Below, in pieces: positions 3,597 through 13,168 of a stretch of DNA of 15,232 nucleotides. This stretch comes from a bacterium. GTDB lineage: Bacteria > Blakebacterota > Blakebacteria > Blakebacterales > Blakebacteraceae. Position numbers and translations under genes: made by a program. Location: positions 1-15,232 of the forward strand of contig JALGWK010000075.1 in assembly GCA_025774205.1 (NCBI GenBank), written 5' to 3'. The notes beneath the pieces were generated by a model, which was given only the letters and a program-made list of their open reading frames with translations, was not told the DNA's origin and did no database searches. Every line of letters starts with the position of its first letter. Positions within the stretch are counted from its first letter, which is position 1.

Positions 3597-4826
3597 CTAC
3601 CCGAAGAAATCGAGCGCTTTCCGGCAACTGGCGATGAGCAGGTCGATCTCCTCGCGGGTGTTGTAGAAAGCGAAGGAGGCCCTCGTCGTCGCCGGGACCC
3701 CGAGCACATCATGCAGGATATGGGTGCAGTGATGGCCAGCCCGGACGGCAATCGAATCCTGATTCAGGAACTCCGACAGATCGTGGGGATGGACCCGCTC
3801 GAGGCTGAACGAGACCAGTGAGGCCCGACCGTTCCTCGGGCCGTGGATCTTCACCCCTGCCAGCGTCCCGATCGCATCGAGCGCGTAATCCACGAGTTCG
3901 GTCTCGTAGGCGTGGATATTATCCAGTCCGAGGTCGCTCAGGTATTCGGCCGCGACCCCCATCGCCACCACTTCGGCGACATCGGGTGTTCCCGCCTCGA
4001 ACTTGTACGGCAGTTTCGCGAAGGTGGTCCCTTCTTTCGTGACCCGGTCGATCATGTCCCCGCCACCCATGAAAGGCGGCATCTCCTCAAGCAGTTCCCT
4101 CTGTCCCCAGAGCACGCCGGCCCCGGTGGGGCCGCACATCTTGTGGGAGGAGAAGGCCAGGAAGTCGGCGCCGAGAGCGGTCACATCCACCGGCATATGC
4201 GGCACACTCTGGGCTCCGTCCACCACGACGATCGCTCCGACATCGTGCGCCATCCGGGCGATCTCGGAGATCGGGTTGATGGTTCCCAGCACATTACTGG
4301 CATGAGCGACCCCGACGATCCGGGTGCGGTTCCCCAGCAGATCGGCCAGTACATCCAGGTCAAGGCGCCCCTCCTCCGTGATCGGGACATAGCGGATCAC
4401 GGCACCCATCTCCCGGGCCACCAGCTGCCAGGGAACGATATTGGAGTGATGCTCCATTTCGGTGAGTACGATCTCATCCCCCGGTCCCAGATGCGTCCGG
4501 CCCCAGGCATTGGCAACGAGGTTCAGCCCCTCAGTGGTGTTCCTGGTGAAGAGGCAGCAGTTCGGGTCGGGCGCGCCTATGAAGCTCGCCAGAATCACCC
4601 GTGATCCCTCATACGCCTCGGTCGCCTCTTCCCCCAGCTGGTGGATGGCGCGGTGGACATTGGCGTTGCTGGTCCGGTAGAAAGCGGCGTGGGCCTCCAG
4701 CACCCGGCTCGGCTTCTGGCTGGTGGCGGCGCTGTCAAGGTAGACCAGCAGGGTGTCGTTGATACGGCGGCTGAGGATGGGGAAATCTTTCCGGATCGTG
4801 TATGGATCGAAGGCGGGTTGGTTCAT
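3597..4826 (-). CDS. sufS: SufS, group II cysteine desulfurase
   Basis: SufS is a PLP-dependent enzyme that removes sulfur from cysteine (giving alanine) as a persulfide and hands it to SufU. The 409 residues match the group II family length. The PLP-binding Lys229 is in SSHKMCGPTGAG, and the persulfide Cys367 in VRAGHHCTH. EMEHHSNIVPWQ (about 123-134), VVDGAQSVPHMPVDV (about 201-215) and FEAGTPDVAEVVAMG (about 277-291) are family blocks. HHCTHILHDVLGVPATTRAS differs from the more usual HHCAQPLM form but keeps the Cys. The start ATG overlaps the stop of the upstream GGDEF-like frame (ATGA, 4826-4823), so translation is probably coupled. It is unusual that sufS is not in the sufBCDU operon but converges with it. 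Confidence 0.97.
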   Translation of the reverse strand: MNQPAFDPYTIRKDFPILSRRINDTLLVYLDSAATSQKPSRVLEAHAAFYRTSNANVHRAIHQLGEEATEAYEGSRVILASFIGAPDPNCCLFTRNTTEGLNLVANAWGRTHLGPGDEIVLTEMEHHSNIVPWQLVAREMGAVIRYVPITEEGRLDLDVLADLLGNRTRIVGVAHASNVLGTINPISEIARMAHDVGAIVVVDGAQSVPHMPVDVTALGADFLAFSSHKMCGPTGAGVLWGQRELLEEMPPFMGGGDMIDRVTKEGTTFAKLPYKFEAGTPDVAEVVAMGVAAEYLSDLGLDNIHAYETELVDYALDAIGTLAGVKIHGPRNGRASLVSFSLERVHPHDLSEFLNQDSIAVRAGHHCTHILHDVLGVPATTRASFAFYNTREEIDLLIASCRKALDFFG

Positions 4827-5430
4827 CGGCGCTCTTCAGGTTGGCTCGGTGGCAGTGTCTCGGTGAAGGAGGCCTGTTCCAGGCTGCCAAGCAGCTCCAG
4901 GTGGACGGTGATCTCCTCCCGTACCCCGGTATGCTCCTGGAGAAAACTGCGCGCTTTCTCATCCTCGTAGAGGTCGAGATGAAAGGAACCCTGAGCCCGG
5001 GCCATCGCGGCGGCGGTCCATGCCTTGCGCAGAAGTACCGGAACCCTTTCACCATCCCACGGGAACTCCGCCAGGCCGGCAACAAAGGTGATCACGGCTG
5101 CCGTTGATGAGTTGCTCTTCATCAACCGGATCTGGTCGGCGACCCTCTCGAGCGCCGGTACGATATTCTTCTTGGGCGCGTCGAGGAAGAGGAGTCCGAA
5201 GTGGTTCCGGTCGAGACGGCAGATCAGGTCGGTATCCCTGACCGAGGCCTTGACCATCTGCACGAGCGTCAGCACGCTCTCGTTCAGGATAAGGTAATCC
5301 ATCTCGGTTTCCAGGCGCTCGTAATCGAGGAGTTCGACCACGCCGCAGGTGACACGTGTTCCCCGACGCCCGGTCAGGTTGATCTCCTCCTCGAAGCGAC
5401 TGAGCCAGTACTCCCGTGACCAGACACGAT
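4823..5430 (-). CDS. Degenerate GGDEF domain (C-terminal part of a frameshifted GAF-GGDEF protein)
   Basis: This frame holds a GGDEF-like domain without an obvious start of its own. It begins near 5430 with YRVWSREYWLSRFEEEI, which fits the opening DxLTGLxNRxxFxxxL block of GGDEF domains, and the first usable codon in frame is a GTG at 5341. The signature loop is RLDRNHFGLLF where an active diguanylate cyclase has R(Y)GGDEF, so c-di-GMP synthesis is very unlikely. The end, GLAEFP followed by LLRKAWTAAAMARAQGSF, fits the last GGDEF helix region. The preceding sensory part lies in the overlapping upstream frame (5374-6426); one extra base near 5430-5434 would join them into one protein of 534 residues. 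The stop overlaps the sufS ATG. A regulatory or ligand-binding role is inferred. Confidence 0.6.
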
Positions 5431-6426
5431 AGGGAAGTTCCAGGATGGCAGGGTTCGCTCGAGTTCGACAATAATGGTCCTGATCACCGAGTGATCGAGG
5501 GTGTCCTCCTGAGCCGGATCAGTGTCGAAGAGGTAGAGGGTTCCCAGGTAGGTCCGTCCCGCATCCCTCAAAACCCAGGGTGTTATTCTCTGGAAGGAGG
5601 TGAACTGCTTCTCGGGAAAAAGCTCCGACACCTCGGTACTGGGCTGCCGACCCTGGACCTGGTCCTCGATCCGCGGGTTGAGATGGGCAAGCATCAGTTC
5701 ATGCAGCTCGAATGACTCGGTGGGGGTGATATTTCTGGTGAACGATTTCTGTTTTCCGAGAACCGTGGTGGGGAAGAGGGCCAGTCGACTGTTACCCACG
5801 ATCTTGGACAGGGTATTCAGGACCATGTTCAGCAGGTGACCGGCCTCCGATTCACGCATGAGCGTACGGGTCAGCTGAAGCATCTGGATCAGTTGGATCA
5901 GTTTCTCGTTCTCACGTTCCAGCCGGACCACCTGGCTCAGAAGACTGGAAAGGTGGTCGGTGGCCGAGCCGACCTCGACCATTACGGAGGCGGACAGTTC
6001 GGAACCGATCGCGCTGCCGGCGAGCAGGACACCGCCCAGGAACCGTCCCTCGAAATGCAGCGGCAGCCAGAGCGCGCTGGCGGGAGCCTGCTTGTCAATA
6101 GAAGTCCAGATCTTCCGGTAGGAGTCATCCAGCTCCACTTCCACCGGGCCCGATTCGGACATCTCCGACCTGAGAGTTGCCCAGGTGGGCAGGAAGGGAT
6201 CGGTCTCCAGCCCGGGTTTACCGTTTCCCGAGGCGACCTCGATCAGCATGAGAATGGCATCGGTATCGGCCGGATCCTCGAAGAGCAGCACCACCTCTGA
6301 TGCCGCCGAGGCGCCGCGGATAGTCGATAGTAGCCGCAGGATGACCGGCTGGAGCGCAGAGAGCGCGCTCGGCACCCCGGTCCGGACCGGAGTCTCCTCC
6401 GTTTGAGTTCCCTGTTCCTCTGTCAT
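5374..6426 (-). CDS. GAF-type sensory protein (N-terminal part, frameshifted before GGDEF domain)
   Basis: The 350-residue cytoplasmic protein has no signal peptide or membrane helix. Residues about 25-170 resemble a GAF domain: SALWLPLHFEGRFLGGVLLAG is the typical end-sheet block. A coiled helix follows (VRLERENEKLIQLIQMLQLTRTLM, about 167-190), and then a second GAF-like region (about 195-330, ending with LGTLYLFD). Family knowledge says such modules bind small ligands or sense redox state; the ligand here is unknown. The last about 18 residues are probably out-of-frame reading, since the continuation YRVWSREYW is found in the next frame. AGGAG lies 4 bases before the ATG (6435-6431). It is transcribed towards sufS and may share its mRNA. 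Either the gene is broken or the sequence has an indel. Confidence 0.6.
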   Translation of the reverse strand: MTEEQGTQTEETPVRTGVPSALSALQPVILRLLSTIRGASAASEVVLLFEDPADTDAILMLIEVASGNGKPGLETDPFLPTWATLRSEMSESGPVEVELDDSYRKIWTSIDKQAPASALWLPLHFEGRFLGGVLLAGSAIGSELSASVMVEVGSATDHLSSLLSQVVRLERENEKLIQLIQMLQLTRTLMRESEAGHLLNMVLNTLSKIVGNSRLALFPTTVLGKQKSFTRNITPTESFELHELMLAHLNPRIEDQVQGRQPSTEVSELFPEKQFTSFQRITPWVLRDAGRTYLGTLYLFDTDPAQEDTLDHSVIRTIIVELERTLPSWNFPIVSGHGSTGSVASRRRST

Positions 6427-11863: not shown

Positions 11864-12187
11864 CTACCTCTCCTCTTCCACCACCACCGCGGTTCCGAAA
11901 CAGAGTATCTCGGCGGCTCCCGACATGACCATGCTCGTCATGAACCTGACCGCGATCACCGCGTTGGCGCCCAGGGTGTGAGCTTCCTCGAGCATGCGAT
12001 CGATCGCCTGCTCCCGGGATTCGGCCATCATCTTGGTATATTCGGTCACCTCACCGCCAACTATTCCACGCAAGCCGGCCAGGATATCCTTGCCGACATG
12101 GCGAGCCCTGATCGTACTCCCACGAACCAATCCGAGGGTTCTGATGACCTTCTTGCCGGCGATGCACTCGGAGGTGGTGACGATCAT
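11864..12187 (-). CDS. YbjQ / DUF74 (UPF0145) family protein
   Basis: The 107 residues align along their length with E. coli YbjQ (about 107): an N-terminal TT....G..V....G.V.G strand region, then ARHVGKDILAGLRGIVGGEVTEYTKMMAESREQAIDRM, broken by AHTLGANAVIAVRF and the final GTAVVV strand. The family folds as small pentameric or oligomeric domains and is often described as a possible heavy-metal-binding protein, but its real role is not established. The ATG overlaps the anti-sigma stop (ATGA, 12187-12184), so it is the third member of a coupled cassette with the sigma and anti-sigma genes. Confidence 0.93.
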   Translation of the reverse strand: MIVTTSECIAGKKVIRTLGLVRGSTIRARHVGKDILAGLRGIVGGEVTEYTKMMAESREQAIDRMLEEAHTLGANAVIAVRFMTSMVMSGAAEILCFGTAVVVEEER

Positions 12188-12657
12188 TTCTCAACTCCCT
12201 TGTAGGGATCGGTCCGGTAATCCACAATCCGCTCCCAGGCGACAGTGGCCAGCAGGACCACGAATCCGACAACCAGCAGGCCGATCGTGAGCTTCTCGAA
12301 CAGATTCCCGTCCGAAGTAATGAAGGTGTACACCGCGTACGAGAGGTACATGATGAACCCGATGATCGTAAAGATCCATCCGGTCGGGCGAGCCACTTTC
12401 CGGTTCACATCATCCCACACACTGCCGCCCGGCATCTCAGGTTGTTTCATCCCCATGGCCTGGAGTTCTCCTTTCAGAACCTGGAAAATGCCGACTTCCC
12501 GCTGGCATTCCGTACATGACTCAAGGTGCTGTTCGAATCGTCGGCAGTCCTCGCCATGCAGTTCACCATCCACGAATCGGGCCAGATCCTCCCTGAATCC
12601 GTCGCAGGTTTCCCCGCCTGTCGGAACCGTCCCGGAAGTGCCGTGTGAATCGATCAT
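12184..12657 (-). CDS. Anti-sigma factor with zinc finger (zf-HC2) and two membrane helices
   Basis: The 157-residue protein starts with an anti-sigma zinc domain: FREDLARFVDGELHGEDCRRFEQHLESCTEC, in which His44, Cys48 and Cys51 form the HxxxCxxC ZAS motif and Cys38 may complete the site. Such domains hold the cognate ECF sigma factor inactive. Residues about 94-115 and 122-143 are hydrophobic helices joined by only about six residues (SDGNLF), so there is almost no external domain to sense or be cleaved. The tail, about 14 residues, returns to the cytoplasm. The gene overlaps the sigma gene upstream and the YbjQ gene downstream by four bases each. The upstream pair is the natural partner. 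Confidence 0.88.
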   Translation of the reverse strand: MIDSHGTSGTVPTGGETCDGFREDLARFVDGELHGEDCRRFEQHLESCTECQREVGIFQVLKGELQAMGMKQPEMPGGSVWDDVNRKVARPTGWIFTIIGFIMYLSYAVYTFITSDGNLFEKLTIGLLVVGFVVLLATVAWERIVDYRTDPYKGVEK

Positions 12658-13085
12658 GGGTACTCTACCCCCATGTTCTCAAGAGTGTGATCGGCAAGAG
12701 CCTCCCAGATCAGGGAACGCGCTTCACCATCCAACGTCGCCCGATCCGTTCGGGCCCGCGGATCAGGCAACTGGATCTGCTTCTCATCATCATCGCCGTC
12801 GAGCGAATAACTGAATCTGCGGCGCCTCAGGAAGTCGATGCACAGGTTCCTGCAGACGCTGAGGATCCAGGCCAGGAACGGGCGGGCTGGATCGTACAGT
12901 TCCATTGATTTGAACGCCCGCACGAACGAGTCCTGGACCAGGTCGCGCGCGTCGTCGGCATTGTGCACGATCCCGATGGCCAGGCCGAACAGGCGGCCCT
13001 CGTACGCGCGCACAATCGGTTCATACGCTTCCCAGTCACCTGCCCGGCATTTCCGTAGCAGTTCCCGCTCGACTTCAATTGGCAT
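12654..13085 (-). CDS. ECF-type RNA polymerase sigma factor, region 4 not present
   Basis: The 143 residues contain a clear sigma region 2: LLRKCRAGDWEAYEPIVRAY (9-28), GIVHNADDARDLVQDSFVRAFKSM (38-61, core-binding and -10 contact) and LAWILSVCRNLCIDFLRRRR (71-90). After the linker (about 91-125) the protein ends SLIWEALADHTLENMGVEYP. ECF factors are usually 170-200 residues, with a helix-turn-helix region 4 (LR..EG.S..EIA...G...GTVKSR) that reads the -35 element; that block is missing. There is no room for it before the overlapping anti-sigma ATG, so this is not a simple frameshift. GAGGA (minus strand, 13095-13091) precedes the ATG by 5 bases. It may be a region-2-only factor or a deletion remnant. 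Confidence 0.85.
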   Translation of the reverse strand: MPIEVERELLRKCRAGDWEAYEPIVRAYEGRLFGLAIGIVHNADDARDLVQDSFVRAFKSMELYDPARPFLAWILSVCRNLCIDFLRRRRFSYSLDGDDDEKQIQLPDPRARTDRATLDGEARSLIWEALADHTLENMGVEYP

Positions 13086-13168
13086 GCATGTCCTCGTTCA
13101 CATGTTCAGATACGGAACTGATCTGATTCTTTTCACGATCACAGGTTATTTCCTGGTCGCGCGTGTTT

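Follow-up and report, generated by a model that had tools for sequence, protein, structure and literature searches.

Can an ECF sigma factor dispense with region 4, the part that reads the promoter -35 element? The question is raised by a gene on a 15,232-nt contig of a member of the Blakebacteraceae, the whole of which was analysed and is referred to here as the window. The encoded protein stops where region 4 should begin, and the gene is still coupled to that of an anti-sigma factor.

The open reading frame runs from 13085 to 12654 on the minus strand and encodes 143 aa, with the C-terminal end ...LIWEALADHTLENMGVEYP directly before the stop codon. It matches the Pfam Sigma70_r2 model (PF04542) with 62 bits, as expected of an ECF (group 4) sigma factor. 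Region 4, likewise expected of this group, is absent; neither PF08281 nor PF04545 matches the window protein at E-values up to 10, and the orthologues L016 and L017 from related genomes match both Sigma70_r4 models with 38-46 bits. The co-encoded anti-sigma factor that marks ECF systems is found in the 157-aa zf-HC2 protein (gene 12657..12184), whose ATG overlaps the TGA stop of the sigma gene and whose hydrophobic stretches, judged from sequence, are probably membrane-spanning. The orthologous region 4 was found neither in other frames, nor elsewhere on the contig, nor in the genome. The initial annotation had described an intact region 2, a missing region 4 and, from the overlap of stop and ATG, no region 4 hidden downstream, and our analysis agrees with it on each of these points.

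Table 1. Features of the sigma factor operon, in window coordinates.
Feature	Position	Strand	Basis or remark
ECF sigma factor gene, region 2 and linker only (143 aa)	12654..13085	-	135-nt gap relative to orthologues
Sigma-70 region 2 (core binding, -10 reading)	12816..13016	-	Pfam PF04542
Deletion junction GAGGCTCTT-GCCGATCACA-CTCTTGAG	12680..12700	-	DNA alignment; G001, G002 and G003 all carry the 135 nt lost here
Anti-sigma factor, zf-HC2 (ZAS) and hydrophobic stretches, 157 aa	12184..12657	-	Pfam PF13490; start overlaps sigma stop
YbjQ-family protein, 107 aa	11864..12187	-	Pfam PF01906; ATG overlaps anti-sigma stop
Presumed autoregulatory ECF promoter, TGAAAA-N15-CGTATC	13109..13135	-	Conserved ahead of the sigma gene in all four genomes

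The window genome (G000) was compared with three relatives from the same family: G001, of the same genus (orthologue apparently L016), G002 (L028) and G003 (apparently L017). All three carry a syntenic sigma orthologue in the same operon, 74-80% identical to the window protein, and in each of them the gene is full-length, with open frames of 192, 204 and 204 aa. After the LIWxAL motif, the relatives continue into a standard region 4 (HREV-x-VLKD ... PQGTVASR-x-YYAR-x-ALRE) and then into LE-x-MGV-x-YP and the ATGA overlap. The window protein passes from LIWEAL via ADHT directly to LENMGVEYP. At the DNA level, 135 nt (45 codons) present in G001 are absent from the window, and the flanks within the gene contain no other gaps. 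The alignment points clearly to a loss by the window copy. The initial annotation was therefore right that residues are missing, although their number is 45 and not about 50. Of its two explanations, the in-frame deletion is the one favoured by the full region 4 in the syntenic orthologues of all three relatives; a class of minimal sigma factor is not supported, because the same three genomes carry the complete domain at the syntenic place, the outcome that the initial annotation had itself named as refuting it.

The heptamer GATCACA is kept at the junction and recurs in G001, where it lies at the DH codons of region 4.1. Judging from this retained heptamer and from one relative only, the gap may consist of two adjacent cuts of 12 and 123 nt. 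We also rejected a deletion mediated by long direct repeats, as the junction shows just a 6-nt CTCTTG repeat and matches of 8-9 nt with no clear donor.

The region upstream of the sigma gene bears on what the protein would have to read. TGAAAA and CGTATC, spaced by 15-16 nt, are the two independent 6-mers common to the upstream regions of all four genomes, and none of 5000 shuffles had two shared 6-mers. The spaced pattern TGAAAA-N15/16-CGTATC has one exact match per genome, always upstream of the sigma gene; since it was derived from the same four sequences, their match is by construction, but its absence elsewhere in the genomes is not. The pattern looks like a self-promoter whose -35 element would be recognised by region 4, and it is still intact in the window. 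The promoter itself is presumably autoregulatory. The intact operon is an ordinary unit of SigW-like ECF sigma factor, ZAS anti-sigma factor and YbjQ protein with a single presumed self-promoter, and it is probably autoregulated as a whole.

We consider it very unlikely that the short protein works as a minimal sigma factor, recognising promoters through the -10 element only or with the help of a separate region-4 partner. In favour of this reading, region 2 is conserved and undamaged, the operon is complete, and there are precedents both for region-2-type initiation (T4 gp55, PMC7892883) and for split domains (SigO-RsoA, PMC8103513). Against this, the short form occurs in none of the three family relatives, where the full-length form is found instead, and the presumed promoter retains its -35 element in all four genomes. 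In a structure prediction of the truncated protein, the region-2 helices reach a pLDDT of ~75 (overall 61), but the tail after LIWEAL is predicted with low confidence (pLDDT <50), which also speaks against a dedicated short form. A split sigma factor is not supported either: the contig holds no region-4 match, and region-4-like matches elsewhere that lack a region 2 of their own are other proteins or at chance level. Four candidates for a region-4 partner were inspected and discarded, namely a full ECF gene that is frameshifted (C82), an unrelated 134-aa HTH protein (C464), an XRE-like protein (C470) and a weak, chance-level match inside a long frame (C283). A limited literature search found no ECF factors lacking region 4.

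The truncated protein could also be kept as a decoy or anti-anti-sigma factor that occupies the anti-sigma factor, as its region 2 and the ZAS domain of the anti-sigma factor are both intact. However, the genome contains no full-length cognate sigma factor to be regulated in this way, the nearest paralogue being 46% identical and located on another contig, and none of the three family relatives has such a gene. We regard this role as scarcely credible. A recently truncated ECF factor that either still works from the -10 element alone or ties up its anti-sigma factor as a decoy is likewise highly improbable.

The age of the loss was approached by assigning residue changes to branches with G002 and G003 as outgroups. 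In region 2 and the linker, four assignable changes fall on the window branch compared to 12 on the branch of the intact G001 orthologue. The anti-sigma factor (three versus nine) and the YbjQ protein (one versus three) were scored in the same way. These counts give no sign of relaxed selection on region 2. With fewer changes in region 2 on the window branch than on the G001 branch, the loss of region 4 is either very recent or not real.

The window genome assembly consists of 527 contigs, with 85.9% completeness and 4.8% contamination. From a sample of 41 contigs (0.37 Mb), 71 genes were compared with 0.58 Mb of the same-genus genome. The open reading frames were chosen by match score, which removed most antisense phantom frames. 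Further clean indels were found in conserved genes. Within the window, a GGDEF-domain gene (4823-6426, minus strand) has a clean 34-nt deletion near 5449 that shifts the frame, so that the single 570-aa frame of G001 is split in two. A heavy-metal P-type ATPase gene (L083, G000 C507) lacks 149 nt at ~3942 relative to G001, with a frameshift and loss of the GDGINDAPAL stretch. On L069 (G000 C102), a class-III aminotransferase gene has lost 60 nt in frame, including its SGAEAVE stretch, and the adjoining ABC ATPase gene is frameshifted by a perfect 10-nt tandem duplication (+10 nt); the positions of the ABC ATPase and aminotransferase indels are ~5930 and 6970. A second ECF gene (L036, G000 C82, 631-1202) has a frameshift within region 2, caused by the loss of ~13 nt, a size judged against a 53% identical homologue that is intact in G001. 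The motifs removed from the indel-bearing genes are catalytically important in their families. With the sigma gene included, two of the six indels are in frame, the share that chance would give if reading frame were irrelevant. These indels add weight to the suspicion of an assembly error voiced in the initial annotation.

The sister genome shows a cut of its own: 65 nt are missing from an FtsX/MacB-like permease gene (L122, G001 C260, ~19470) that is intact in G000. Such cuts, whether errors or real, are not confined to one assembly, and this observation makes it conceivable that the lineage undergoes small real deletions.

Our data argue for an ordinary SigW-like ECF sigma/anti-sigma/YbjQ operon that carries an assembly deletion, which we hold to be the probable explanation. 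The gene of the species would then most likely be full-length, encoding a SigW-like sigma factor of ~188 aa that reads TGAAAA as -35 and CGTATC as -10 element. In this case 135 nt of region 4 would have been dropped during metagenome assembly, and the in-frame result would be a one-in-three coincidence. Since nothing beyond the gap is disturbed, the overlap of stop and ATG is preserved. The -35 element retained in the presumed promoter fits this reading. The cut in the sister genome weighs against it, as does the retained GATCACA, which would suggest two adjacent cuts and not one.

A genuine in-frame deletion of region 4, of very recent date, in the strain or species is possible but less likely. 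Its cleanness and frame, the intact flanks, anti-sigma and YbjQ genes, and the few substitutions that fit a recent event are consistent with it. On the other hand, several similar cuts hit conserved, mutually unrelated genes in the parts that carry their motifs, and such cuts would rarely occur together if they were real. Should the deletion be real, it would be a very recent loss-of-function event, loss of function being what one would expect by default from a deletion of domain 4; the leftover region-2 protein could possibly still titrate the anti-sigma factor or weakly bind core RNA polymerase. As the relatives are whole and similar cuts occur in other conserved genes, the locus most likely reflects a gap in the assembly or else a deletion of very recent date, and not a new kind of sigma factor.

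Knowledge of sigma factors is unchanged by this result, which instead calls for caution: an in-frame gap in a fragmented metagenome assembly can mimic a new protein architecture. Comparing the gene once with relatives and looking for out-of-frame cuts in genes nearby can expose such gaps.

Among known systems, the locus is closest in kind to the SigW-type ECF factors (B. subtilis SigW, PDB 5wuq; NCBIfam NF007223), with which the window region 2 aligns at 54 bits. SigW is the best NCBIfam match of the full-length orthologue L016, at 124 bits and below the curated cut-off of 209, and by its sequence L016 resembles SigW but is not classed as SigW. As in SigW-type systems, a ZAS anti-sigma gene adjoins the window sigma gene; the difference is the region 4 that is absent from the window copy and present in its orthologues. 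In B. subtilis SigO-RsoA, regions 2 and 4 reside on separate proteins and a region-2-only protein can work (PMC8103513). Both parts are encoded there in one operon (yvrI-yvrHa), whereas no region-4 partner gene is apparent in the window genome and the sigma factors of the relatives are in one piece. T4 gp55, a protein with homology to sigma region 2, recognises a -10-like element (PMC7892883). In contrast to the window protein, whose tail is what remains of an ordinary ECF C-terminus, gp55 (with gp33) has its own helix-loop-helix motif, a sliding-clamp-binding tail and a coactivator.
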